From a virus: DNA of 21,690 nucleotides. The stretch spans positions 1 through 21,690 of the IMG/VR virus record IMGVR_UViG_3300021962_006369. One strand, written 5' to 3'. The notes under the pieces were generated by a model that was not told the DNA's origin, searched no databases, and saw only the letters and a list, made by a program, of their open reading frames with translations. A program made the position numbers and the translations under genes. Position 1 is the first letter of the stretch, and every line of letters begins with the position of its first letter. This document shows positions 4,045 to 17,195 of this stretch, one piece after another.

Positions 4045-5490
4045 ATGAACGACAAGTTAAGTTATATTAAAAAGGATGATCGAAAGAAGATCTTTTTATT
4101 ATCAGATGACATTAGGTTACACTCCGGAATTGCTACTATGGCAAGAGAGATAGTCATTCAGACAGCTCATCATTACAATTGGGTCAATCTAGGAGGCGCT
4201 ATGAACCATCCTGATGATAAGAAAGCATTTGACCTATCAGCAGATATAAATAAACAAGTAGGTATCGAAGACGGATACGTTAAGCTATATGCTACATCAG
4301 GATATGGTACTGCTGATATTGTTAGAGAGCTGATTAAGGTAGAGCAGCCTGATGCTATTTTACACTTTACCGATCCTAGATACTGGACCTGGCTGTATGA
4401 TATTGAGCGTGAAATCAGACAAGAAGTGCCTCTCTTCTATCTGAATATCTGGGATGACTATCCTACTCCTCTTTATAATAAAAGTTTTTACGAGTGTTGT
4501 GATTTATTAATGGGCATCTCTAAGCAGACTGTTAATATTAATAAGATGGTCTTAGATGAGAAGGTTAAAGGTAAAGTAATGAAGTATGTACCTCATGGCA
4601 TTAATACAGACTTCTTCTTTCCTATCAATAAAGACTATAAGAACTACGATAAGTATTTAGAGTTTAGAAATAGTATCTTTGAAGGAAAAGATATTGAGTT
4701 CGTTGTCTTCTGGAATTCTAGGAACATTCGACGTAAGTCACCAGGTGATGTTATTTTGTCTTACAGACAGTTCTGTGATTTAATCGGACCGGAGAAAGCT
4801 AAGAAGTGTGCTTTAGTAATGCATACCCAAGCAGTAGACCAGAACGGTACAGACTTATATGCTGTTAGGGAAGCTGTATGTGACCCAAGCTATGTAAATG
4901 TATTCTTTTCTCAGAGTAAGTTATCAGCCGAGCAGATGAACTGGCTTTATAATATGGCTGATGTAACAACTCTTATCTCTTCTAACGAAGGATGGGGCTT
5001 AAGCTTAACAGAAGCTATGACTGCTGGCACTATGATCATTGCAAACGTTACCGGAGGTATGCAAGACCAGATGAGGTTTGTAGATGAGAATGGGGAGTGG
5101 TATACTCCTAATCCAAAGGTACCTTCTAACCATATGGGTACGTATAAGGAGCATGGTGAATGGGCTGTGCCTGTATTCCCTTCCAACATCTCATTAGTAG
5201 GTTCAGTCCCTACTCCTTACATTCATGATGACAGATGTGACTTTAGAGATGTAGCTCAAGCTATTAAAGAAGTATATGAACTATCTAAAGAAGAGAGAGA
5301 TCGTAGAGGTATGGCTGGACACGATTGGGTTCGCTCTAATGAAGCTAAGATGACAGCTGAGGCTATGGGAGCTAATATAGCTGAATGTATGGAAGAAGCT
5401 TTTAAAGCTTTCGTACCTAGAACTAGATACGATCTAACCAAAATAGAAACTCTTCCCAGTAAGTATGTTAAACACGCAATGGTATATTAA
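4045..5490 (+). CDS. GT4-like glycosyltransferase (GT-B fold)
   Basis: This 481-residue protein probably transfers a sugar from a nucleotide donor. The N-terminal Rossmann-like half begins KIFLLSDDIRLHSGIATMAREI, where GIA takes the place of the Gly-rich acceptor-side loop. The middle has KYVPHGINTDFF, typical of the GT4 hinge. The C-terminal half contains EGWGLSLTEAM with Glu315 and Glu323, the EX7E motif that binds the donor nucleotide sugar in GT4 enzymes, followed by the Gly-rich NVTGGMQDQ. The length is slightly above the usual 350-420, with an insertion after the EX7E region (about 350-390). It opens the glycan operon, immediately after the RHH gene, and shares one base with the next start. 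Donor and acceptor are unknown. Confidence 0.85.
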   Translation: MNDKLSYIKKDDRKKIFLLSDDIRLHSGIATMAREIVIQTAHHYNWVNLGGAMNHPDDKKAFDLSADINKQVGIEDGYVKLYATSGYGTADIVRELIKVEQPDAILHFTDPRYWTWLYDIEREIRQEVPLFYLNIWDDYPTPLYNKSFYECCDLLMGISKQTVNINKMVLDEKVKGKVMKYVPHGINTDFFFPINKDYKNYDKYLEFRNSIFEGKDIEFVVFWNSRNIRRKSPGDVILSYRQFCDLIGPEKAKKCALVMHTQAVDQNGTDLYAVREAVCDPSYVNVFFSQSKLSAEQMNWLYNMADVTTLISSNEGWGLSLTEAMTAGTMIIANVTGGMQDQMRFVDENGEWYTPNPKVPSNHMGTYKEHGEWAVPVFPSNISLVGSVPTPYIHDDRCDFRDVAQAIKEVYELSKEERDRRGMAGHDWVRSNEAKMTAEAMGANIAECMEEAFKAFVPRTRYDLTKIETLPSKYVKHAMVY

Positions 5491-6773
5491 TGAGCAAGAT
5501 TAAAGTTGTAATAAGCTGTCCGATTGATACGTACAGCGGTTATGGAGCAAGAAGTAGAGATTTAGTCAAAGCTCTTCTTAAGACAGGAAAGTACGATGTT
5601 AAGATTCTATCTCAACGTTGGGGCAATACCCGCTTTGGTTACTTAAATGATCATAGCGAGAGCGAACTAGCCTCTCTTATTATTCCTCAGCTAACAGCCA
5701 AACCTCAAGTATGGATGCAGGTAACTGTACCTAATGAGTTCCAACCTGTAGGTGACTACAACATTGGTGTTACTGCCGGCATTGAGACTACTATCTGTGA
5801 CCCTAGCTGGATTGAAGGCTTGAATAGAATGAATCTTAATCTAGTATCTTCTAATCACGCAAAGGAAACATTTGAACGTTCTAAATTTAATATAGAGAAG
5901 GACGGTAAGGCACAAGGTCAAATTGAATTGCAGAAGCCTGTAGAGGTCTTATTTGAAGGAGCTGATCTAGAGAAGTACTTTAAGACCGGTACGATGGCTA
6001 ATATGGAGATCAATTTAGATCTAAACAGTATTAAAGAGTCATTCTGTTTCTTGTTTGTAGGTCATTGGCTACAAGGAGACTTCGGACAAGATAGAAAGAA
6101 TGTTGGTTATATGATCAAAGCTTTCCTAGAAGTGTTTAAGAATAAGAAGAACCAGCCAGCTCTTATTCTAAAGACTCAATCAGCTAATGCTTCTATTTTA
6201 GATAGAGATAACATCTTAAGAAAGATAGATGACATTAGAAAGACAGTTAAGGGCACTCTTCCTAACATCTACCTTCTACATGGTGAGATGGACGACTCAG
6301 AGATAAACGAGCTATACAACCACAGTAAGGTAAAAGCTATGGTTAGCTTTACTAAAGGAGAAGGCTTTGGAAGACCTCTGTTAGAGTTTAGCTTAGTTAA
6401 TAAACCTGTTATTGCTTCAGCCTGGTCAGGACATGTAGACTTTTTAGATCCAGAGTTCAGCATACTTGTAGGAGGATCGCTAACAAACGTACATCAGAGC
6501 GCTGTAGTTAAGAATATGATCTTAGCTGAGTCACAATGGTTTAGTACTAATGATAGTCAAGCCGGACTAGCTCTTAAAGACGTGTTTGATAACTATAAGA
6601 AATATGCAGAGCAAGCTAAACGTCAAGGATATAAGTCTCGTACTAACTTTAGCTTTGATAAGATGGTAGAGCGTTTAGAAGAGATCTTTACAACTAACCT
6701 ACCTAAGTTTGCTCAAGAAGTAAAACTAGAGTTACCTAAACTATCTCTACCTAAACTACAAAAAATCGAATAA
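5490..6773 (+). CDS. GT4-like glycosyltransferase (GT-B fold)
   Basis: This 427-residue protein has the two-domain GT-B layout. The first strand and loop read KVVISCPIDTYSGYGARSRDL. A linker region near LFEGADLEKYF precedes a second Rossmann domain (FCFLFVGHWLQGDFGQDRKN), and KGEGFGRPLLEFS carries Glu291 and Glu299, the EX7E donor-binding motif. ASAWSGHVDFL follows, as in GT4 enzymes. The C-terminus is Leu/Lys/Pro-rich with repeated LPKL units and may be a flexible tail. The A of the preceding TAA is the first base of this ATG, so translation is probably coupled. It shares fold and motifs with its upstream neighbour but is not a close duplicate by eye. Confidence 0.85.
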   Translation: MSKIKVVISCPIDTYSGYGARSRDLVKALLKTGKYDVKILSQRWGNTRFGYLNDHSESELASLIIPQLTAKPQVWMQVTVPNEFQPVGDYNIGVTAGIETTICDPSWIEGLNRMNLNLVSSNHAKETFERSKFNIEKDGKAQGQIELQKPVEVLFEGADLEKYFKTGTMANMEINLDLNSIKESFCFLFVGHWLQGDFGQDRKNVGYMIKAFLEVFKNKKNQPALILKTQSANASILDRDNILRKIDDIRKTVKGTLPNIYLLHGEMDDSEINELYNHSKVKAMVSFTKGEGFGRPLLEFSLVNKPVIASAWSGHVDFLDPEFSILVGGSLTNVHQSAVVKNMILAESQWFSTNDSQAGLALKDVFDNYKKYAEQAKRQGYKSRTNFSFDKMVERLEEIFTTNLPKFAQEVKLELPKLSLPKLQKIE

Positions 6774-7399
6774 TGTTTACCTACCCCGAACAGTATAAGT
6801 TTACAGAGAAATGGTTTGATCCAATGATTCCAAATTGGAATGAACTGTTTAATTACTACTTAAAAGAGAGTACAGTTAAGAATGTTTTAGAGGTAGGATG
6901 CTACGAAGGTAGAGCTACCGTCTATCTTTTACTGCAGCATTTAGATAAAGATGTAACCTACGAAGTTGTAGATACTTTTGGAGGTACTTTAGAAGAGTCT
7001 GGTATGACTGGAACAGTTAGTCGACTATCTGAGAGTGATTTTATATATGAAAACTTTATGCATAATATGTCTCAACATACAGACATAGATTTAAAAGTAC
7101 ATAGAGAGTACAGTCAATTAAAACTACCTCAGCTTTATCAGGAAGGTAATAAGTACGACTTCATTTACATTGATGCATCTCATAGAGCAGATGATACTTT
7201 TGTAGATGCGTACTATGCTCATAAGATGTTAAACCCTGGAGGGTTATTAATATTTGACGACTTCGGCTGGAAAGACCCAGCACAGCCACACCCAGTTCAT
7301 TCTCCAGAGCTTGGTGTACGTAGCTTCTTTACAATGTATAGTGAAGACTACAGGCTGGTATTAAATGGATATCAAATAGGAGCAATAAAGAATAAGTAA
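6773..7399 (+). CDS. Class I SAM methyltransferase (Methyltransf_24-like)
   Basis: This 208-residue protein has a SAM-binding motif I, NVLEVGCYEGRATVY (Glu40, Gly42, Gly46). A later strand YDFIYIDASHRADD is at about residues 128-141, then MLNPGGLLIFDDFGW. The ID-SH-DD pattern followed by PGG and DD is typical of Methyltransf_24 enzymes, which include sugar and small-molecule O-methyltransferases. The final DD may bind a divalent metal, as in related catechol-type enzymes. It overlaps the previous stop by one base and abuts the next gene, so it is embedded in the glycosyltransferase operon. Methylation of a sugar in the glycan is the simplest role, but the acceptor is unknown. Confidence 0.83.
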   Translation: MFTYPEQYKFTEKWFDPMIPNWNELFNYYLKESTVKNVLEVGCYEGRATVYLLLQHLDKDVTYEVVDTFGGTLEESGMTGTVSRLSESDFIYENFMHNMSQHTDIDLKVHREYSQLKLPQLYQEGNKYDFIYIDASHRADDTFVDAYYAHKMLNPGGLLIFDDFGWKDPAQPHPVHSPELGVRSFFTMYSEDYRLVLNGYQIGAIKNK

Positions 7400-7837
7400 A
7401 TGGAACAGTTAACTACCTGTAAGAGATGCGGAAGCAATGCTTGCTATGAACAGCAAGTAAACGAAGAGGTCAAGACTTGGCTATGTATGGGATGTGGCTT
7501 TACTACATCTACCGTAATGACAGAAGGATCAGAACCGATTAAGAACATCCTAGAGACATCTCCTGAGCTGTATAAAGATCTTATGCATACAGACGATGAA
7601 GGACATATCTGGGTACCTTCTACAATCACTCTACCTAACAGAGGTATGGTCTTCTTAGACGGAACATCAGCTACTGATTGGAAATGGGCTGCTGTTAAAG
7701 CAGTACCGCTAACAGAAGGTGATAAAAAGATGTCTAAAGACCAGACTCATAAAATGGATATGAAGAACGTCCAACACTTCCAAGAGCGAGACTTTATGGA
7801 CGCTCTAGAGGTAATTGGCTTTTACGAAATGTTATGA
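7400..7837 (+). CDS. Zinc-ribbon protein of unknown function
   Basis: The N-terminus of this 145-residue protein holds four cysteines as two CxxC pairs (Cys7/Cys10 and Cys29/Cys32), a zinc-ribbon arrangement. The rest, about residues 35-145, has no recognised fold. It includes the segments HIWVPSTITLPNRGMVFLDG and WKWAAVKAVPL and a C-terminal acidic helix (FMDALEVIGFYEML). No nuclease or transferase motif is visible. It starts directly after a methyltransferase stop and overlaps the next glycosyltransferase by four bases (ATGA), so it is translated with the glycan genes. It might be a regulator, an adaptor or an assembly factor, but none of these can be supported over the others. Confidence 0.75.
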   Translation: MEQLTTCKRCGSNACYEQQVNEEVKTWLCMGCGFTTSTVMTEGSEPIKNILETSPELYKDLMHTDDEGHIWVPSTITLPNRGMVFLDGTSATDWKWAAVKAVPLTEGDKKMSKDQTHKMDMKNVQHFQERDFMDALEVIGFYEML

Positions 7838-8457
7838 AGTTAAGCTACGCCATTACAGTTTGTAATGAACTAGAAGAAATAAAAAGGTTAGTACCTTTCC
7901 TGAAAGAACATAAACGTCCTCAGGATGAAGTAGTTGTACTCTTTGATCAGAAGAATGGCGATAAGGAAGTTATTGACTACCTAATAAAGTTTAATAAGTA
8001 TCCTAACATTCAGACCTGGAGAGGTTACTTTGAGAATGACTTTGCTGAATGGAAGAATGCTCTCAATAGATACTGTACAGGTGATTACATCTTTCAGATA
8101 GATGCTGATGAGATGCCTACAGAGTATATGATGAAACTTATCCCTCAGATCATTGAAGCCAATCCTGTAGACCTAATCAGAGTTGCTAGAGTTAATACTG
8201 TAGAAGGTCTAACAGAGGAACATATCCGCAAATGGGGCTGGCAGGTAAATGAAAAGGGATGGGTTAACTATCCTGACTACCAATGGCGCATCTATAAGAA
8301 CGATCCTAGAATTAGATGGTGGGGTAATGTACATGAGAAGATTATAGGTCATGGTACCTTCGCTCACCTACCAATGGAAGAGACAGAGCTAGCATTAAGA
8401 CATGCTAAGACAATCGAAAGACAAGAGAGACAGAATAACTATTACGATACATTATAA
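7834..8457 (+). CDS. GT2-like glycosyltransferase (GT-A fold)
   Basis: This 207-residue protein begins with the GT2 strand-loop SYAITVCNELEEIKRL. DEVVVLFDQKNGD follows at about 31-43, and YIFQIDADEMP places the DxD metal/nucleotide-binding motif at Asp90-Ala-Asp92. Downstream, YQWRIYKNDPRIRWWGNVHEKI resembles the acceptor-side segment of WaaE/SunS-type GT2 enzymes, which add sugars to lipopolysaccharide core or peptides. It is shorter than most GT2 proteins (about 250-300) and consists essentially of the catalytic core. It overlaps both neighbours (four bases upstream, one downstream). Confidence 0.83.
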   Translation: MKLSYAITVCNELEEIKRLVPFLKEHKRPQDEVVVLFDQKNGDKEVIDYLIKFNKYPNIQTWRGYFENDFAEWKNALNRYCTGDYIFQIDADEMPTEYMMKLIPQIIEANPVDLIRVARVNTVEGLTEEHIRKWGWQVNEKGWVNYPDYQWRIYKNDPRIRWWGNVHEKIIGHGTFAHLPMEETELALRHAKTIERQERQNNYYDTL

Positions 8458-8876
8458 TGGAACAGATCTATTCAAAAGTAGACCCTGAAAAGCTTCTACA
8501 TATTATCGTTCGTAAGGAAGACCTAACACCAGGACGTGTAGAGGTTGTACCTGAGAATCATTTCATACAATGTGCTCTTCTTAATATGGAAGAAGGTAAA
8601 ACATTTAGACCTCATAAGCATATTTGGAAAGAAAGAACTAGAAACGTTATTGCTCAAGAGAGTTGGATTGTTATTCAGGGCAGTGTGCGTTGTACATTCT
8701 TTGATACAGATGATCAGATTATTGCTGAACCTATTCTACAGCCAGGAGATGCTTCCTTTACTTTAGAAGGAGGACATACTTATACAATCTTAGAAGATAA
8801 TACTCTTGTGTACGAATATAAGACAGGTCCTTATGAAGGACAGGCATTAGATAAAACCTTCTTAGATGGACAATAG
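8457..8876 (+). CDS. Cupin-fold protein
   Basis: This 139-residue single-domain cupin has RPHKH giving His53 and His55, then QESWIVIQGSV in which Glu68 and Gly75 fit the E(x)6G part of cupin motif 1. The His-Glu interval is longer than usual (a Trp/Lys/Arg-rich insertion at about 56-67). Motif 2 is LQPGDASFTLEGGHTYTILED with His107. The likely metal ligands are thus all present. Cupins in sugar operons include epimerases and isomerases such as the RmlC and FdtA/WxcM groups as well as proteins of unknown role. Its place between two GT2 genes suggests it acts on a nucleotide sugar or regulates the pathway. The specific reaction cannot be read from sequence. Confidence 0.78.
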   Translation: MEQIYSKVDPEKLLHIIVRKEDLTPGRVEVVPENHFIQCALLNMEEGKTFRPHKHIWKERTRNVIAQESWIVIQGSVRCTFFDTDDQIIAEPILQPGDASFTLEGGHTYTILEDNTLVYEYKTGPYEGQALDKTFLDGQ

Positions 8877-9627
8877 GTTTGTTATCATCACTACATGTTA
8901 CAATGTAGAACCTTATATCAGGATGAACATTCATATGAATCGATTCCAATCATATAAGAATGCTCTCTTTGTATATGTAGATGACAATTCAAAAGATACC
9001 ACTTACAGTACTTTAACTCATTTAGGTTTTGCTGATGATCGTTTTCTTATTCTAAAGAATACAGACAATGGCAGTCAAGGTAAGGCATTTATGTATGCAG
9101 TGAACTACCTAAAGAGTAATAATCTAATTAGTGAGGAAGATATAGTTGTAGAGGTAGATGGTGATGATTGGCTATCAAGCACGTTTGTATTACAGTACCT
9201 CAATGAAGTATATCAGAACAAAGACGTCTGGATGACCTTCGGACAATACCAGATGTGGCCTACAGCACAGCTAGGAGGACATCTTGAAATGGATATTCAT
9301 CCAGAAGTAGATAAAGCAAACACTCATCGTCAATATGCTTTTCCATATTCACATCTTAAGACATATAAGTTTTGGTTGCTGGATAAGATAGAGCGAGAAG
9401 ATTTAATTGATCCTGCTACAGGAGAGATCTTTGCTGCAGCTTGGGATCATGCTCTTTGTTTACCGATGGTAGAGATGGCAGGTAAAGATCACATCTACAG
9501 ATGCCCAGACGTGCTCTATATACTCAACCGAGATCAAGAGCTACAGAACGAAGGAAAGCTCAGAACGACTGAGCAAAAAGAAACAGAACAGAGAATTAGA
9601 GAGGGTAAAGTCTACCAGAGGTTATGA
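8866..9627 (+). CDS. GT2 family glycosyltransferase (GT-A fold)
   Basis: This 253-residue protein has the classic GT2 signature: FVIITTCYNVEPYI at the first strand, YVDDNSKDTT at about 37-46 (nucleotide-binding Asp pair), and VVEVDGDDWL with the DxD motif at about 98-101. The C-terminal part (AAAWDHALCLPMVEMAG, about 190-206) corresponds to the GT2 region that usually carries the catalytic base. The ATG lies 11 bases inside the preceding cupin gene, and the hydrophobic first strand begins within a few residues, which supports this start. It overlaps the next gene by four bases. Donor and acceptor are unknown. Confidence 0.87.
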   Translation: MDNRFVIITTCYNVEPYIRMNIHMNRFQSYKNALFVYVDDNSKDTTYSTLTHLGFADDRFLILKNTDNGSQGKAFMYAVNYLKSNNLISEEDIVVEVDGDDWLSSTFVLQYLNEVYQNKDVWMTFGQYQMWPTAQLGGHLEMDIHPEVDKANTHRQYAFPYSHLKTYKFWLLDKIEREDLIDPATGEIFAAAWDHALCLPMVEMAGKDHIYRCPDVLYILNRDQELQNEGKLRTTEQKETEQRIREGKVYQRL

Positions 9628-11063
9628 TAGTATTTGTTGTTGGGTTATATAAATCAGGAACTTCTCTGATAGCCTCTATGCTGGAAGAGATAGGATGTGA
9701 GACTATTGTCGATAGGTTAGCTACAACTAAAGGACTAACCAGAGAGTATGACATTAAAGAAGCATACTTTGTTAACCAGCTTAATAATAAAATACTCTCC
9801 ACATACTCTAATGCTGAGATTTATTTTAAGAATGAAGACTTACCAGAAGTTATTGATGAGTCATTCACAAACCTTATTAAAGATTATCTAGCACAGCTTA
9901 AAGGTAGAACTGTCTTCATTAAAGACCCTCGCTTTATCGGTACACTAAAGTACTGGGTGGCAAACATACCAGAGGGTGAGGAGTATAAAGTCGTATACGT
10001 TGACCGTACTGAAGGACTAGAAGACTCTTTTAGGATCGATAAGTGGTTTAGTGATAAGATAACAGATGGTGACTATACAAGAGCAATTAGCTCTTTAAAG
10101 AGTAACTACTATAAGACTAGAGGACAGTTCAAAGGTATTGAGATTGATTTTGATACTCAAAGAAAAGATCAAGTTAAGTTAGGTCATCTACTTTACAACT
10201 TTGTTACTCAAGACTTTGATAAGACTTACAGAGTATACTTCCATAACTACTTTCTACCTTCTAAAGAACTTACAGAGCTGTTCAGTAAACAGACCCCAGG
10301 TAGTAGCGGTGTATGGAAGAACCTAGTAGCTGTTGACAATATTAATCAGGCTGACTATGAAGTAGCTCAAGATAAGACAGATGGAAAGTATAATGCTAGT
10401 AAGTTAATCTTCTTTGGAAGAGAGCCTAAACACATCTTCTATCATGACATACCTCAAGCGGCATATAACTTTCATCATGAGAAAGGGAATAGCCATATGC
10501 CTCAAACCTGGTGGGTGAGTCAAACATATGATGAGTTAGTAGCTAATACTTCTACAGATAAGCAACACCTACTTAGTATTATTGACTCAGGTAAGAGCGG
10601 AGTAATCGGACATACCAGAAGAGTAGAAGCAATTGATAAGTTACATAGTTCAGATATCGATCTACACATCTACGGAAAGACTAAACGTTATACTGGTCAG
10701 AAGTATTTAGGAGAGCTTCCTCCTAGAGATAAATCTAACGGACTGTTAAACTATCGCTTTAACTTAGCAATTGAGAATGGACAGACAGATTTATATTTCT
10801 CTGAGAAGTTCTGCGATCCTATCCTCTGTAACACCTTCCCAATCTATGTAGGATGTAAGCAGATTGATAAGTTCTTTCCTGAAGGTAGTTACTTTACTAT
10901 TGACTTAAATAAAGATGTAGTAGCTCAAGTTAAAGATATTATAAGCATTCCAGTAGAAGAGCTAAACTACTCTGCTTTGTTTGAAGCTAAGGACCTAATA
11001 CTAAACAAATATAATATCTGGGATACTATCCACAGAGTCATTCATACAGGTAAGACGTTATGA
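9624..11063 (+). CDS. Sulfotransferase-like / GT10 fucosyltransferase fusion
   Basis: This 479-residue protein has two apparent domains. Residues 1 to about 190 look like a sulfotransferase P-loop fold. VVGLYKSGTSLIASML matches the 5'-phosphosulfate-binding loop, and VDRTEGLEDS (Arg128, Ser135) resembles the 3'-phosphate-binding motif for PAPS. Residues about 200-440 match family GT10 alpha-1,3/4-fucosyltransferases, most clearly in YRFNLAIENGQ (377-387), SEKFCDPILCNTFPIYVG (393-410) and FFPEGSYFTI (417-426), the GDP-fucose-binding region. A single chain may thus sulfate and fucosylate, or the N-terminal domain may only bind an acceptor. I see no frameshift; the fusion is continuous in frame. 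The nearby GDP-mannose dehydratase gene fits with use of a GDP-deoxysugar. The donor could also be a related GDP-sugar. Confidence 0.85.
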   Translation: MIVFVVGLYKSGTSLIASMLEEIGCETIVDRLATTKGLTREYDIKEAYFVNQLNNKILSTYSNAEIYFKNEDLPEVIDESFTNLIKDYLAQLKGRTVFIKDPRFIGTLKYWVANIPEGEEYKVVYVDRTEGLEDSFRIDKWFSDKITDGDYTRAISSLKSNYYKTRGQFKGIEIDFDTQRKDQVKLGHLLYNFVTQDFDKTYRVYFHNYFLPSKELTELFSKQTPGSSGVWKNLVAVDNINQADYEVAQDKTDGKYNASKLIFFGREPKHIFYHDIPQAAYNFHHEKGNSHMPQTWWVSQTYDELVANTSTDKQHLLSIIDSGKSGVIGHTRRVEAIDKLHSSDIDLHIYGKTKRYTGQKYLGELPPRDKSNGLLNYRFNLAIENGQTDLYFSEKFCDPILCNTFPIYVGCKQIDKFFPEGSYFTIDLNKDVVAQVKDIISIPVEELNYSALFEAKDLILNKYNIWDTIHRVIHTGKTL

Positions 11064-11938
11064 GGTATATACAATCAGCTCCTATAGACTTTACAGACCC
11101 TGATATAGGACGTAGCAGCTCAGGCCATAAGTTCCATAATTGGATTACTGGATTGTACTTAAGTAAGTTATTTGATCTCGAATACATCTACAGTCCTTTC
11201 ACAGGAGATGCTGAAAGGTATGAAGCTTTTCTAAACCTGCATACTGCCTACCGTAACATCACTCAAGTAACACCTACATTGATTATTAACGTAGGTACTC
11301 CTGAGTTCTGTCATAACGATGAATTAGACCATGCCCTATACACTAACAGTATTACTTCGTTAGAGACTGTGATTGAGAATAGTCCCGATGGTACATTATT
11401 CCGATTAGGACATAATCCATTCCCAGGGCTATTAACACAGTACTACTCTCAAGTTGTAGAGGAGCTTCAACAAGCTTACTGGTCGTTGGATAGAGGTATT
11501 GAACTTAAGTATAGTAGAGATAAAGTATCTGTTGCTATTCATATACGTAGAGGAGATATTAATGCTAGTAAGAATCCTGATCGCTGGTTAGATCTAAACT
11601 ACTATGCAGACATTATAGATAAGGTCAACTCAGAGCTGAGCTCTTTAGACATTCATATCTTCTCAGAAGGACATCCAGAAGACTTTAAAGTTCTTATGAG
11701 AGAGAATGTAACCTTACAATTAGGAGGTTCAGATTTAGAAGCACTTCATCATATGAGTGCAGCAGATATACTTGTGACAGGACAGAGTAGCTTCTCTATT
11801 ATGGCTAGTTACTTTAACAGAGGAGTAATCATCTACACTCCTTTAAAGAACCTAATGTACAATTGGAATGATGAGCACAGAATGCACATCGATAAAATAG
11901 ATTTTAAATCTTTAAAGAAAAGATTCGATGGTAGATAA
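11060..11938 (+). CDS. Fucosyltransferase-like protein with HxRRGD motif (GT11/GT23-like)
   Basis: This 292-residue protein contains VSVAIHIRRGDI with His161 to Asp166. This is the HxRRGD motif shared by alpha-1,2-, alpha-1,6- and protein O-fucosyltransferases (families GT11, GT23, GT65 and relatives), where the second Arg contacts the GDP-fucose phosphate. Downstream, HHMSAADILVTGQSSFSIMAS (about 230-250) matches the second conserved region with its SSFS. The N-terminal segment SSGHKFHNWITGLYLSKLF looks like the Gly/His/Asn start of the GT11 fold. Four-base overlap with the GT10 fusion gene places two different fucosyltransferase-like folds side by side. The exact CAZy family would need a profile search. 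Confidence 0.8.
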   Translation: MRYIQSAPIDFTDPDIGRSSSGHKFHNWITGLYLSKLFDLEYIYSPFTGDAERYEAFLNLHTAYRNITQVTPTLIINVGTPEFCHNDELDHALYTNSITSLETVIENSPDGTLFRLGHNPFPGLLTQYYSQVVEELQQAYWSLDRGIELKYSRDKVSVAIHIRRGDINASKNPDRWLDLNYYADIIDKVNSELSSLDIHIFSEGHPEDFKVLMRENVTLQLGGSDLEALHHMSAADILVTGQSSFSIMASYFNRGVIIYTPLKNLMYNWNDEHRMHIDKIDFKSLKKRFDGR

Positions 11939-12464
11939 AAGTTTTGTACTAAATAACTTTCCTGCTCAAAGCAGAGGAGTAGAGATAGGAGTATGGAAAG
12001 GAGAGTACTCTAAAGTAATTGCCGATAGAATATCACCAGCAGCATTGTATTTGTGCGACCCTTGGCTGTTTACTCCTCAACATCCAGATAGATGGTACGG
12101 AGGTACTCAAGCAACATCTCAGCAAGACATGGATAACATTTACGGTAACGTAGTAGATATGTTTGCTGATAATCCTAATGTACATGTCATAAGAGATGTA
12201 GGAGCAAACCTATTAAACTATATTCAAGCCGGTACATTAGATTGGACGTACATTGATGGTGACCATAGCTATGAAGCTGTACTTCAAGATCTAATTATCA
12301 GTTATGAATTAATTAAACCAAAAGGATTTATAACAGGTGATGACTTTGATAACGGTAACGATATTCATAAAGCTGTGGAAGAGTTTGTAAATAAGTACAC
12401 AGACCAAATCGAAAGTGCAATAGTACAAAGTAGACAATTTATTATAAAACTTAACAAGTTATGA
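11928..12464 (+). CDS. Class I SAM methyltransferase (Methyltransf_24-like)
   Basis: This 178-residue protein has motif I at GVEIGVWKGEYSKV (Glu19, Gly21, Gly25). The strand LDWTYIDGDHSYEAVLQDL (about 103-121) follows, with the IDGxHxYE pattern of Methyltransf_24 enzymes, then IKPKGFITGDDF. The Asp pair in GDDF may bind metal, as in related O-methyltransferases. It is a compact enzyme with no extra domain. The ATG lies 11 bases inside the previous gene and the last four bases overlap the next one. It is the same family type as the protein at 6773 but clearly divergent, so the two probably methylate different positions or sugars. Confidence 0.82.
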   Translation: MVDKSFVLNNFPAQSRGVEIGVWKGEYSKVIADRISPAALYLCDPWLFTPQHPDRWYGGTQATSQQDMDNIYGNVVDMFADNPNVHVIRDVGANLLNYIQAGTLDWTYIDGDHSYEAVLQDLIISYELIKPKGFITGDDFDNGNDIHKAVEEFVNKYTDQIESAIVQSRQFIIKLNKL

Positions 12465-13000
12465 TTAAATTAAATCTAGGCTGCGGCTGGAGAGACTTTG
12501 GACCTGAGTGGGTTCATATCGACGGAGGTGATTATCCTCATCTAGACTCTAAAGACATTATTAATCTTCCTTACGAAGATAATTCTGTGGACCTTATCTA
12601 TGCCAGTCACGTACTGGAATACTTTGATAGAGATCAAGCTAAAGAAGTTCTAACTAAATGGCATAGCAAACTAAGACCAGGAGGTATTATTAGATTAGCT
12701 GTACCTGACTTTCAAGCTATGGCTAAGTTGTATATTGAGCAAGGATATCCTCTCTCAAAGTTCTTAGGACCTCTCTACGGAAAGATGCCTATGGGCAACC
12801 AGACCATCTATCATAAGACAACTTATGACTTTACGGAGTTGGAATCCTTATTAAAAGTTCTTACATTTAGTAATATAGAGACGTATGACTGGCAGCAGAC
12901 TGAACATGCATCATTCGATGATCACTCTCAGGCATACATCCCTCATATGGATAAAGAGAACGGAACACTAATTAGTTTAAACGTACAAGCTACAAAATGA
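12461..13000 (+). CDS. Class I SAM methyltransferase (Methyltransf_11/COG4627-like)
   Basis: This 179-residue protein starts directly with motif I, KLNLGCGWRDFGPEWVHID (Gly7, Gly9). INLPYEDNSVDLIYASHVLEYF (about 34-55) follows, then LRPGGIIRLAVPDF (about 72-85). This is the pattern of predicted SAM-dependent methyltransferases often found in polysaccharide clusters. The later insertion (LYGKMPMGNQTIYHKTTYDF) resembles the substrate-covering region of that group. It has no lid domain before motif I. It overlaps both neighbours by four bases. Acceptor unknown. Confidence 0.82.
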   Translation: MIKLNLGCGWRDFGPEWVHIDGGDYPHLDSKDIINLPYEDNSVDLIYASHVLEYFDRDQAKEVLTKWHSKLRPGGIIRLAVPDFQAMAKLYIEQGYPLSKFLGPLYGKMPMGNQTIYHKTTYDFTELESLLKVLTFSNIETYDWQQTEHASFDDHSQAYIPHMDKENGTLISLNVQATK

Positions 13001-13587
13001 GCTTTGAAGTAGTTACACAATTTGAAAATAAGATAGCAGAGTTCTTCGGAGCACCTCACGCTATTGCTGTCGATAGTTGTACACACGGCATTGAACTAGC
13101 TCTGAGATATACTCAAGCAGATCATATCGTAGTACCTAAACGTACATATCTATCTATTCCTTTCCTGGCTAATAAGCTCTGGATTGATCTCTTTTGGAAA
13201 GATGAAGAGTGGAAAGATTATTACTACCTGTCAGAAAGTATCATTGATGCTGCTGTACTATGGGAACCTAATAGCTACATCCCAGGAACGTTTATGGGCA
13301 TTAGCTTTCAATACCAGAAGCATCTCTCATTAGGTAGAGGAGGAGTATTGTTGACTGATAATATTGAAGCAGCTACTCAGATAAAGAAGATGTCTTACGA
13401 TGGACGTCTACCAAACATTCCTTGGAGAGATCAAAACATCGATACAGCTGGCTATCATTACTATATGACACCTGAAGTAGCTCAGAAAGGATTAGACAAA
13501 CTACCAGAAGCTATCGCTACACCTCCGCGTAAGTGGGCTGTAACAGACTGGCCTGATTTAACACAAATGGATATTTTTAAAAAGTAA
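12997..13587 (+). CDS. Shortened DegT/DnrJ/EryC1-type sugar aminotransferase
   Basis: Members of this family transfer an amino group to keto-sugar nucleotides using PLP. In this 196-residue protein FENKIAEFFGAPHAIAVDSCTHGIELAL is the family N-terminus, IIDAAVL supplies Asp84, and ISFQYQKHLSLGRGG supplies the PLP Lys108. GYHYYMTPEVAQKGLDKL matches the usual GYNYRM...A..GL segment. The usual length is about 360-400, so the C-terminal small domain is missing and a short PLEP-free tail (ATPPRKWAVTDWPDL) ends the chain. The stretch between the N-terminal part and Asp84 is also short. No frameshift is apparent and the stop is followed two bases later by the dehydratase gene, so this looks like a natural compact form. 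It may make an amino-deoxysugar such as GDP-perosamine, or have lost activity. Confidence 0.8.
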   Translation: MSFEVVTQFENKIAEFFGAPHAIAVDSCTHGIELALRYTQADHIVVPKRTYLSIPFLANKLWIDLFWKDEEWKDYYYLSESIIDAAVLWEPNSYIPGTFMGISFQYQKHLSLGRGGVLLTDNIEAATQIKKMSYDGRLPNIPWRDQNIDTAGYHYYMTPEVAQKGLDKLPEAIATPPRKWAVTDWPDLTQMDIFKK

Positions 13588-13589
13588 TT

Positions 13590-14558
13590 ATGAAGAAAGC
13601 TTTTATCACAGGCATTGCCGGACAAGATGGCTCTTATCTTGCAGAGTACTTAGTAAGCTTAGGTTACGAAGTGCACGGCATCATTCGCCGTAACTCTACT
13701 CCTGAACATCAGGAATCTAGAATCAACCACCTTGAAGGAAAGGTAACAACCTATTACGGAGACCTTCTAGATCAGAGCAGCTTAGAGAAGCTTCTGAGAG
13801 ATATCCAACCTGATGAGGTTTATAATATCGCAGCACAATCACACGTTCGTATCTCATTTGAGATTCCTCAGTTCACTGTTATGACAAACGCCTTAGGTGT
13901 AGTTAATATACTAGAAGCAGTTCGCAATAACTGTCCTAATGCTAAGTTCTATCAAGCTTCCTCATCAGAGATGTTTGGTAGCTCAGTAGATGAGGATGGC
14001 TATCAGAGAGAGACAACTAAGATGACTCCTGTATCACCTTACGGATGTACTAAAGTGTTTGGCTATAACATCGTACGCAACTACCGCAATGCATATAAGA
14101 TGCATGCATCAAATGGAATCTTATTCAATCACGAATCACCTCGTAGAGGTTCTAACTTCGTTACTAACAAAGTAGTTAAAGCAGCTGTTCGTATTAAGTT
14201 AGGCCTGCAAGAGAAGTTAGAGTTGGGTAACATGGATGCTTATCGTGATTGGGGACACTCTAAAGATTATGTCCGTGCTATGCATTTAATCATGCAACAA
14301 GACGAACCAGGTGACTGGGTAGTGGCTACAGGAGTTACTCATTCAGTTAGAGAGATGTGTGAGTATGTCTTTGGTAAGCTTGGACTAGACTATAACGAGT
14401 ATGTTATACAGAATCAAAAGTTCCTACGTCCGGAAGAGCTTAAGTACCTAAAAGGAGACTCTAGCCGTATTCGTTCACTAGGATGGGAGCCTGAATACAC
14501 TTTCGAGACTCTGATGGATGAAATGATTGAGCACTGGCTAGAAGTATATAACAAGTGA
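13590..14558 (+). CDS. gmd: GDP-mannose 4,6-dehydratase
   Basis: It converts GDP-D-mannose to GDP-4-keto-6-deoxy-D-mannose, the branch point for GDP-fucose, GDP-rhamnose, GDP-colitose and GDP-perosamine. The 322-residue protein is an extended short-chain dehydrogenase. FITGIAGQDGSYLAEYL gives the GxxGxxG NADP-binding loop (Gly8, 11, 14), IIRRNST follows at 31-37, ASSSEMFG carries Ser126 and Glu127, and SPYGCTKVFG carries the YxxxK pair Tyr151/Lys155. FNHESPRRGSNFVTNK and AYRDWGHSKDYV are GMD-specific signatures. The length is a little below the usual 345-375. The ATG follows the aminotransferase stop by two bases. No GDP-fucose synthase (GMER/Fcl) gene is visible in the window. Confidence 0.95.
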   Translation: MKKAFITGIAGQDGSYLAEYLVSLGYEVHGIIRRNSTPEHQESRINHLEGKVTTYYGDLLDQSSLEKLLRDIQPDEVYNIAAQSHVRISFEIPQFTVMTNALGVVNILEAVRNNCPNAKFYQASSSEMFGSSVDEDGYQRETTKMTPVSPYGCTKVFGYNIVRNYRNAYKMHASNGILFNHESPRRGSNFVTNKVVKAAVRIKLGLQEKLELGNMDAYRDWGHSKDYVRAMHLIMQQDEPGDWVVATGVTHSVREMCEYVFGKLGLDYNEYVIQNQKFLRPEELKYLKGDSSRIRSLGWEPEYTFETLMDEMIEHWLEVYNK

Positions 14559-15466
14559 GAGTAGCATTCTTTACAGAGATGGGCTTTGCTGGAAAGGTAC
14601 CTCGTACGCATACAAACATGCGTACAGAGTTTGCCTGGATGGTGGCTATGGATGCAGATCATTACAACCTCAAGCAGTTACCTGAGCAGGAATATGATCT
14701 AGGAATTGTTATCAATTCTAAGAACCATCCTGACTGGGTTAATGTAGAAGGATTGAAAGCTAAATGTAAGCAAGTAGGTATTATGCAAGAAGGACCCTTC
14801 TGGTACTTTCAGGACTATCCTCTAGCAAACCAGGTACACTACTTCAATAACCTAATGGCTGCAGACATCATCTTTGTACATAATGAAGTCGATAAAGATT
14901 ACTACAAAGGTTTAACCAATCATCCTGATGTAAGAGTATTACGTTCGTTGATGATAGAAGATCCTATCGGCGATATTACTCCTGCAGAAGAAAGAACCGG
15001 AGTAATGATAGGCGGTAACTTTAAGAGCTGGTACGGAGGTTTTGACTCCTTTATGCTAGCTAGAAGTATCACAGATGAGATATACTCTCCACAGATGGGC
15101 AGACGTCAAGAAGGAGAAGAGCAGCTAGGTATCACTCAACTACCTTACCTAGAATGGAACCAATGGATAACTGAACTAAGTAAAAGAAGGATTGGCATTC
15201 ATATGATGAGGACTCATGCTGCTGGAACCTTTGCACTTAACTGTGCCTACTTAGGCATCCCTTGCATAGGGTATGAAGGCTTAGACACCCAACGCATACT
15301 CCATTCAGAGTTAACTGTCAAGGATGGAGACTTAGCTACAGCAAGAGAGTTATTGCAACAGTTGCATAACGATGAAGAGTTTCGTAACTTATGTAGCAAA
15401 CAAGCCAGAGAAGCCTACCAACAGTACTACACAGAAGATAACTTCAAAAAAGAATACCTATCATGA
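14555..15466 (+). CDS. GT-B-like glycosyltransferase, GTG start
   Basis: This 303-residue protein begins RVAFFTEMGF, a first Rossmann strand and loop. That supports the GTG at 14555 as the start, since the first in-frame ATG (14579) would cut off this strand. The GTGA overlaps the stop of gmd. ADIIFVHNEVDKDYY (about 103-117) ends the N-terminal half. The second half has GVMIGGNFKSWYGGF and, near the donor site, RTHAAGTFALNCAYLGIPCIGYEG (about 219-242), which corresponds to the conserved C-terminal region of GT4-like enzymes. A classical EX7E motif is not evident, so the family is uncertain. A nucleotide-sugar transferase role is inferred from fold and context. Confidence 0.75.
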   Translation: MRVAFFTEMGFAGKVPRTHTNMRTEFAWMVAMDADHYNLKQLPEQEYDLGIVINSKNHPDWVNVEGLKAKCKQVGIMQEGPFWYFQDYPLANQVHYFNNLMAADIIFVHNEVDKDYYKGLTNHPDVRVLRSLMIEDPIGDITPAEERTGVMIGGNFKSWYGGFDSFMLARSITDEIYSPQMGRRQEGEEQLGITQLPYLEWNQWITELSKRRIGIHMMRTHAAGTFALNCAYLGIPCIGYEGLDTQRILHSELTVKDGDLATARELLQQLHNDEEFRNLCSKQAREAYQQYYTEDNFKKEYLS

Positions 15467-16026
15467 ATGGAGCATGGATGCATGATAAAGAGAGAGCTGT
15501 AATAGAAAAACACCTTACACCAGACTCAATAATGTTTGAATGGGGTTCAGGAGGAAGCACTCAGCACTTCGCACAACTCGTTAAAAGAATATACTCAGTA
15601 GAGAATAATCAAGGCTGGTACGATAAAGTAACTGAGATGCTGGAAGGTGTTGATAACGCTACATTATACTATAAGTCAGGTGAACCTAGCTCTACATTCT
15701 ACCATCAATCTACATACGAAGACTATGCAGAGTATATTGATGCAATTGAGCTGCCAAAGGAACAATTTGATTTAGTACTAGTAGACGGACGAGCAAGAAG
15801 GCTCTGTGCATACAAAGCTCTGGAGTACCTAAAAGAGGACGGAGTGTTGGTTATTCACGATTGGTGTGAACGTTCACCTTACTGGTGTGTACAGGACTAC
15901 TATGACTTAATTGAGAAGGTAGATGATACTCCTCAGACTATAGCAGCATTTAAACCTAAAGCTAATTGGAGAGAGATAGAAGGATATGATCTCACTCTAG
16001 ATACATTTGAAAGAATAGAAGGATGA
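15463..16026 (+). CDS. Class I SAM methyltransferase-like protein
   Basis: In this 187-residue protein motif I is SIMFEWGSGGSTQHFA (Glu26, Gly28, Gly30), followed by RIYSVENNQGWYDKV with the acidic residue that usually contacts the SAM ribose. FDLVLVDGRARRLCAYKAL (about 106-124) and LKEDGVLVIHDWCE (about 129-142) complete the Rossmann core. The VDGxxR pattern and HDW end are seen in predicted methyltransferases near polysaccharide genes. It is the fourth methyltransferase of the operon and the only one of this subtype. It overlaps both neighbours by four bases. Substrate unknown. Confidence 0.78.
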   Translation: MNGAWMHDKERAVIEKHLTPDSIMFEWGSGGSTQHFAQLVKRIYSVENNQGWYDKVTEMLEGVDNATLYYKSGEPSSTFYHQSTYEDYAEYIDAIELPKEQFDLVLVDGRARRLCAYKALEYLKEDGVLVIHDWCERSPYWCVQDYYDLIEKVDDTPQTIAAFKPKANWREIEGYDLTLDTFERIEG

Positions 16027-17195
16027 AAATAAGTCTTATACAGCCGTCCAGAAATAATCTTAAGTACCTTAAATGGTCTTACGACGCCATTAGAAAGAAT
16101 CAGGAAGGTCATGAGGTAGAGGTCTGTGTAGCAGATGATGCATCAACAGACGGTACCTGGGAGTGGTGTCAGGAGATGATGGAGAAAGATCCTCACTTCA
16201 AAGCTATCTTAAATGATACTGGAAAGAGATTGGGACATACTATTTTGTATGACCGTTTGATTAACGAGGTAGCTACCAACGACATCGCTATGATCTATCA
16301 TGCCGATATGTATCTATGCCCAGGAGCATTAGATGCTATTGAGCAAGAGATTAAACCTCGTACAATTGTTTCTCTTACTAGGATTGAACCTCCTCTACAT
16401 CCAGATGGACCTGAGAAGATTCTAAGAGACTTTGGAGTAGAGCCAGAAGAGTTTAAAGAAGAAGCTCTGTTAGCATTTATTAACAGCCGAGTACCTAATC
16501 AGGATATAACAGAAGGTATCTTTGCTCCTTGGGCATTCTATAGAGAAGACTTCCAGAAGATCGGAGGACATGATCCGTTATATGCTCCTCAGTCAAAAGA
16601 AGACTCAGACATCTTCAACCGTTTTATGTTAGACGGAGTAAGCTTTGTACAGACCTGGCACGGTTGTGTTTACCATATGACCTGTAGAGGTAGCAGACGT
16701 AATACAGTTGATAAGGCTAAGAACATCTATGAAGATAGTCCAGAATGGTTAGCACAGAATGAAAGAAGCACTCGTAACTTTATTCGTAAATGGGGTCACT
16801 TTGTTAGGCATGATGCGTTAATGAAGCCAATCGTACCTCCTAAATACAATATAGCTATTAGAGTATTCAATGCTACTGAAGCATTACTAAGAGTATTAGA
16901 GCCTTGGTGTGATACAATTTATGTTGACCTGTTACAGGAAAAGATTGATAGTTATATTCAACAAGAGCAACCAAACACTGCTTACGATTTGAGAGAAAGA
17001 ATTGTAGATAAAGCTGGAGCGGATACTACTGTACGTATCGATGGTAAGACATTCGGTGCACAGGACTTCCAATACATTCAAATGCTTCCAGACATCCTAA
17101 AAGAAAATCAGGCCATAGGTAAATTTAAGCTAGGTAATATCGAGCTTGCTGTTGAACGTCTGACTGAATACCAAGATCAATTAATTAATTTATAA
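16023..17195 (+). CDS. GT2 family glycosyltransferase with C-terminal extension
   Basis: In this 390-residue protein the GT-A domain runs from SLIQPSRNNLKYLKWSY through CVADDASTDGT (about 35-45) to AMIYHADMYLCPGA (about 89-102), where HADMY replaces the usual DxD. GIFAPWAFYREDFQKIGGHD and KEDSDIFNRFMLDG (about 192-205) match the GT2 acceptor-side and catalytic-base regions. After about residue 250 comes a roughly 140-residue extension of unknown fold (PKYNIAIRVFNATEALLRVLEPWCD onward). It is the last gene of the overlapping run. The next small gene starts one base after its stop. Confidence 0.83.
   Translation: MKISLIQPSRNNLKYLKWSYDAIRKNQEGHEVEVCVADDASTDGTWEWCQEMMEKDPHFKAILNDTGKRLGHTILYDRLINEVATNDIAMIYHADMYLCPGALDAIEQEIKPRTIVSLTRIEPPLHPDGPEKILRDFGVEPEEFKEEALLAFINSRVPNQDITEGIFAPWAFYREDFQKIGGHDPLYAPQSKEDSDIFNRFMLDGVSFVQTWHGCVYHMTCRGSRRNTVDKAKNIYEDSPEWLAQNERSTRNFIRKWGHFVRHDALMKPIVPPKYNIAIRVFNATEALLRVLEPWCDTIYVDLLQEKIDSYIQQEQPNTAYDLRERIVDKAGADTTVRIDGKTFGAQDFQYIQMLPDILKENQAIGKFKLGNIELAVERLTEYQDQLINL

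Follow-up and report, generated by a model that had tools for sequence, protein, structure and literature searches.

PAPS-dependent sulfotransferases are recognized by a lysine or arginine in the 5'-phosphosulfate-binding (PSB) loop, a 3'-phosphate-binding (PB) motif of the form RXXXDXXXS and a histidine or glutamate as the catalytic base, and the Sulfotransfer_3 family (PF13469) of these enzymes includes NodH (PMC11625862). In bacteria, sulfotransferases and glycosyltransferases may be encoded together for the production of a sulfated polysaccharide, as in the cellular Synechan xss cluster, in which xssA and xssE are listed apart from eight glycosyltransferase genes (PMC8205485). Glycan sulfation by phages has been little described. 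Here we analyze a viral record of 21,690 bases (the window), in which, as in the xss cluster, the two activities are predicted to be encoded together, with the difference that a Sulfotransfer_3-like domain and a GT10 domain share one polypeptide.

The fused gene (9624..11063, plus strand, like the domains, motifs and junction within it) codes for a protein of 479 aa with an N-terminal Sulfotransfer_3-like domain and a C-terminal GT10 domain. A sequence-only reading of this DNA had claimed one continuous frame, and the frame indeed runs uninterrupted from the ATG at 9624 to the stop at 11063. Both flanking genes (8866-9627 and 11060-11938) share a 4-bp ATGA overlap with it, typical of a tightly packed operon. 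Five further IMG/VR contigs carry a full copy, and a sixth stops inside the gene; these independent viral contigs hold two alleles besides that of the window, with 84–87% identity, and every intact copy is 479 aa long. An assembly or frame artefact is ruled out because further contigs encode the same fused protein, and the separate genes for the two halves that were looked for in close relatives proved to be fused there as well. The motifs quoted in the sequence-only reading are all found at their residues (GLYKSGTSL, 7-15; Arg128; Ser135; LAIENGQ, 381-387; SEKFCDP, 393-399), and both halves fall in the families that it had named. Searches of the complete protein against genome contigs gave no match, and NCBIfam, PHROGs and PADLOC yielded nothing relevant.

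Profile searches and structure prediction of the separate halves gave the clearest result for residues 202-479 (10227..11060), which Pfam, PDB profile search and fold matching all identify as a GT10 (fucosyltransferase-family) domain. Residues 329–454 match PF00852 (Glyco_transf_10) with an E value of 2.4e-10 and 40.8 bits against a curated cutoff of 23.9, a sequence match far beyond chance, and a profile of this half with eight stand-alone viral relatives retrieved the Helicobacter pylori alpha-1,3-fucosyltransferase from the PDB (E = 5e-11). From residue 201 onward, the predicted fold (pLDDT of 70-98 in 10-residue blocks) is GT-B-like and resembles known fucosyltransferases, FucT and FUT9 being the best Foldseek matches (5zoi, 2nzw, 8d0w). 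The donor-binding signature YRFNLAIENGQTDLYFSEKFCDP (residues 377-399; 10752..10820) aligns with that of H. pylori FucT, and N385, Y391, E394 and K395 of its EN...Y.[ST]EK pattern are invariant in 11 relatives. The same is true of the E267-P268 pair, which makes Glu267 (10422..10424) a candidate catalytic base. The nearest other GT10s are stand-alone viral proteins (L135–L142, n = 8), which are 280–301 aa long and 37–44% identical over the entire half and start at window residue ~202, placing the domain junction at about residues 199-201 (10218..10226). These genes belong to more distant phages; they show how the fusion arose and do not refute it.

The N-terminal half (residues 1-198; 9624..10217; AlphaFold2 pLDDT of 80.7 and pTM of 0.81) gives a weak match when scanned alone, to PF13469 with an E value of 0.008 and 16.8 bits, under the curated cutoff of 27; with its homology supported indirectly via relatives, we call it Sulfotransfer_3-like. 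Direct searches retrieved no match in phage records and only weak matches in the PDB, with no sulfotransferase among them, and became informative only once the profile was enlarged. A profile of the three phage alleles recruited three cellular proteins, one from Bacteroidota and two from cyanobacteria, all of which exceed the Pfam Sulfotransfer_3 cutoff. In an hhalign comparison with an independent profile of eight other sulfotransferases, from which the window's own family was left out, the N-terminal half aligned over residues 1–137 with 98.2% probability. With profiles enlarged by the recruited sulfotransferases, the tyrosylprotein sulfotransferases TPST1 and TPST2 rank first in the PDB (E = 1e-4), a result partly carried by the added sequences. 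These profile comparisons make the assignment to the sulfotransferases firm, and it is only through the relatives that it becomes solid.

The structural model of this domain adopts a P-loop kinase/sulfotransferase fold. Its best match in BFVD is a cyanophage sulfotransferase, but kinases do at least equally well in the PDB, where Foldseek places adenylate kinase and dephospho-CoA kinase first (E of about 2e-3). Foldseek by itself cannot tell P-loop kinases from sulfotransferases for this model. That the half is instead a P-loop domain akin to nucleotide or sugar kinases, as these matches would suggest, is very improbable: Pfam shows no kinase family match, there is no Walker A G-K-[ST] in GLYKSGTSL and the profile searches return sulfotransferases. 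The match to a non-sulfotransferase P-loop family that would have contradicted the sequence-only reading was sought by sequence profile and did not appear.

The sulfotransferase assignment is further reflected in individual residues. The loop GLYKSGTSL (residues 7-15; 9642..9668), predicted to bind the 5'-phosphosulfate of PAPS, supplies the expected PSB lysine as Lys10, and its G7, S11, G12, T13 and L15 are invariant among viral relatives. Glu46 (9759..9761), invariant across nine viral sulfotransferase domains, is a plausible catalytic base of the His/Glu type. A KDPR motif (residues 100-103; 9921..9932) is common to the cellular and most viral Sulfotransfer_3 proteins, and its KDP portion also occurs in TPST1/2. 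Comparison with cellular and viral relatives shows the positions of Lys10, Glu46, Lys100 and Arg128 to be conserved; a joint MAFFT alignment, which mixed two domain sets, was left out for this half. Arg128 and Ser135, listed in the sequence-only reading along with the PAPS-type P-loop, are both present and form a candidate 3'-phosphate-binding motif (10005..10028), but the canonical spacing does not hold: Ser135 lies 7 residues from Arg128, as against 8 in RXXXDXXXS, and there is no aspartate at +4.

Both halves are under strong purifying selection, with a dN/dS of 0.04–0.09 overall and of 0.04–0.07 between the window and its relatives, at a dS of about 1 to 2.5. Against the sulfotransferase reading stand the sub-cutoff Pfam score, the kinase-like structure matches, the noncanonical PB spacing and the lack of an APS kinase in the related 124-kb contig. 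The domain might have kept a sulfotransferase fold, lost catalysis and now serve GT10 as an acceptor-binding or oligomerization domain, as the shortened Arg-Ser motif, the sub-threshold Pfam score and the related contigs devoid of an APS kinase would allow. We regard such a loss as improbable in view of the strength of the selection, the retention of the PAPS-loop lysine, KDPR and Glu46 in all alleles and the presence of sulfation genes alongside GT10 in other phages (see below). In the full-length AlphaFold model, residues 1–198 have a pLDDT of <50 from a shallow alignment and are unreliable, as is any packing of the two domains read from it. The clusters that carry the two other alleles (L005 and L007) match at ~98% identity along most of their 12 kb and diverge chiefly in two places, a GT2 gene (window 7834–8450) and the sulfotransferase half of the fusion gene (about 9650–10400). 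From this pattern, the sulfotransferase half appears to travel from phage to phage as a module, accompanied by the GT2 gene.

The first kilobase of the window matches Flavobacterium phage immuto at 82.6%. The gene order in immuto is holin, PD-(D/E)XK nuclease, glycan gene cluster, HNH gene and DUF932 gene, and the window likewise has a PD-(D/E)XK gene followed by a cluster of glycan genes that are unlike those of immuto. The match and this shared layout with different glycan genes identify the window as an Immutovirus-like phage, a relative of the Flavobacterium phage, with a variable glycan cluster. The only stretch with a megablast match in the immuto records, 42-872, codes for a repetitive 276-aa protein rich in Ala, Gly, Val and Glu. 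The glycan assembly and modification cluster (4045..17195, plus strand), which occupies the same genomic place as in immuto, comprises two GT1/GT4-like, three GT2, GT10 and GT11 glycosyltransferases, methyltransferases, an aminotransferase and GDP-mannose 4,6-dehydratase (GMD). One methyltransferase gene (window 6773-7399) is missing from the two closest related clusters.

The GT11 gene (alpha-1,2-fucosyltransferase family; 11060..11938, plus strand; PF01531, E = 7e-7), which adjoins the fusion gene through one of the above 4-bp overlaps, and the GMD gene (13590..14558, plus strand; PF16363, E = 1.6e-115) fit a fucose theme. Between them lies a half-length DegT-type aminotransferase gene (12997..13587, plus strand; PF01041, E = 3e-16) that is conserved with the cluster. 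Half-length DegT proteins of about 200 aa with an SFQ..K lysine region are encoded in the window, L137, L140, L141 and L031, and may be minimal aminotransferases or noncatalytic proteins. GMD gives the only Epimerase match in the records examined. Neither a GDP-fucose synthase nor an APS kinase was found in the related contigs (largest, 124 kb), so the donors are presumed to be made by the host or by unseen genes. With no epimerase/dehydratase gene other than GMD in these records, the GT10 half may take its sugar from GDP-fucose or from a different GDP-6-deoxy sugar. It is unlikely, but deserves serious attention, that both domains are active and the label fucosyltransferase is mistaken, with a donor such as the GDP-6-deoxy or amino sugar that GMD and the short DegT-type aminotransferase might produce. 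This alternative overlaps with the explanation we prefer, from which it differs solely in the donor. In its favor, GT10 is syntenic in several phages with both GMD and the half-length DegT gene, and no GDP-fucose synthase was detected in the related contigs, whereas the alignment of the GT10 donor signature with H. pylori FucT, the adjoining GT11 gene and a possible host supply of GDP-fucose speak for fucose.

Sulfotransferase genes recur near GT10 in other phages. A separate Sulfotransfer_2 gene stops 3 bp upstream of the GT10 gene in L136, overlaps it in L140 and lies one gene away in L139, and a Sulfotransfer_2 gene (read in the L137 contig) and an APS kinase gene are found a few kilobases upstream of GT10 in the L137/L138 contigs, whose clusters have cupin-like, methyltransferase, short DegT and GMD genes in common with the window. 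Profile comparison of the N-terminal half with the Sulfotransfer_2 genes adjoining other phages' GT10s gave no match, which rules out that the fused domain is such a neighboring gene simply joined on. Because the neighboring sulfotransferases belong to families other than the fused one, the pairing of sulfation with GT10 arose more than once. These neighborhoods support the view that the glycan acted on by GT10 is also sulfated; they are no proof of activity in the fused domain. In the glycan cluster of L238 (895-2691), a Sulfotransfer_2 gene and an APS kinase gene are adjacent to a cytidylyltransferase-like gene that weakly matches ATP sulfurylase, making a phage-borne supply of PAPS possible.

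On balance, we consider the protein likely to be a phage glycan-tailoring enzyme, the N-terminal domain of which sulfates a glycan with PAPS from the host and the GT10 domain of which adds fucose or a related sugar to the same glycan. Catalysis, the order of steps, the donor and the destination of the glycan are inferred, with the roles of single residues taken from the families. The acceptor glycan would be built by the surrounding cluster of GMD, GT1/GT4-like, GT2, GT10, GT11 and methyltransferase proteins. The N-terminal domain would hold host-supplied PAPS via Lys10 and the SGTS loop and sulfate a glycan hydroxyl, and the C-terminal domain would hold the GDP-sugar via Asn385, Tyr391, Glu394 and Lys395 and transfer fucose. 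Having both domains in one protein would tie the two reactions together on a single acceptor, for instance by sulfating the fucose or the sugar to which it is joined, and the finished glycan would probably decorate the virion or the surface of the infected host.

Flavobacterial hosts live among algal polysaccharides that are sulfated and contain fucose. With this cluster, the phage may produce a glycan that is both fucosylated and sulfated; if active, the fusion enzyme would offer a compact means of producing sulfated fucose glycans and would suggest that flavobacterial phages build their own sulfated coats. As a tentative yet credible wider picture, a single phage enzyme, formed when a Sulfotransfer_3-like domain became joined to a phage GT10, might both fucosylate and sulfate a glycan, thereby masking or marking virions or the infected cell, with its sulfotransferase half exchanged among phages together with the GT2 gene.

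We found no other sulfotransferase–GT10 fusion among 78 other viral GT10 loci or among the GT10 matches from about 1,040 genomes of cellular organisms (395 from Bacteroidota, 244 from the phylum of Prochlorococcus and 398 from a third phylum), with one frame of 2,454 aa read in part. The cellular GT10 frames are mostly 280–390 aa long; among the longer frames, the three inspected (414, 441 and 639 aa, the last with a long N-terminal extension) have no sulfotransferase loop. A search of limited open-access literature brought up no paper describing an enzyme in which a sulfotransferase is joined to a fucosyltransferase. The cellular Sulfotransfer_3 proteins of Bacteroidota and cyanobacteria share with the N-terminal half GxxxSGTxL, KDPR, the following tryptophan and the domain length; however, their PB motif is one residue longer, and those found here are single-domain proteins or have other parts, such as long C-terminal extensions, and never GT10. 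The stand-alone phage GT10s (cyanophages; L135-L142) also lie within phage glycan clusters but lack the sulfotransferase domain, any sulfotransferase present being encoded separately and belonging to a different Pfam family. In phage proteins of about 550 aa that fuse GT2 with GT10 (L147, L149, L185, L204 and L211; Pfam run on L147), GT10 is likewise C terminal but the partner is a GT2 glycosyltransferase instead of a sulfotransferase. In two other phage proteins (L125 and L131), a Sulfotransfer_3-like domain is, as here, part of a longer polypeptide, but the remainder of each protein shows no Pfam hit above the cutoff and no sign of GT10; the L131 protein (4116-6515; 800 aa) has its sulfotransferase-like middle between two long regions devoid of Pfam matches. 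Both families, and phage fusions of each to other partners, occur among these records, and the pairing of a sulfotransferase with GT10 is what sets the present protein apart from them.
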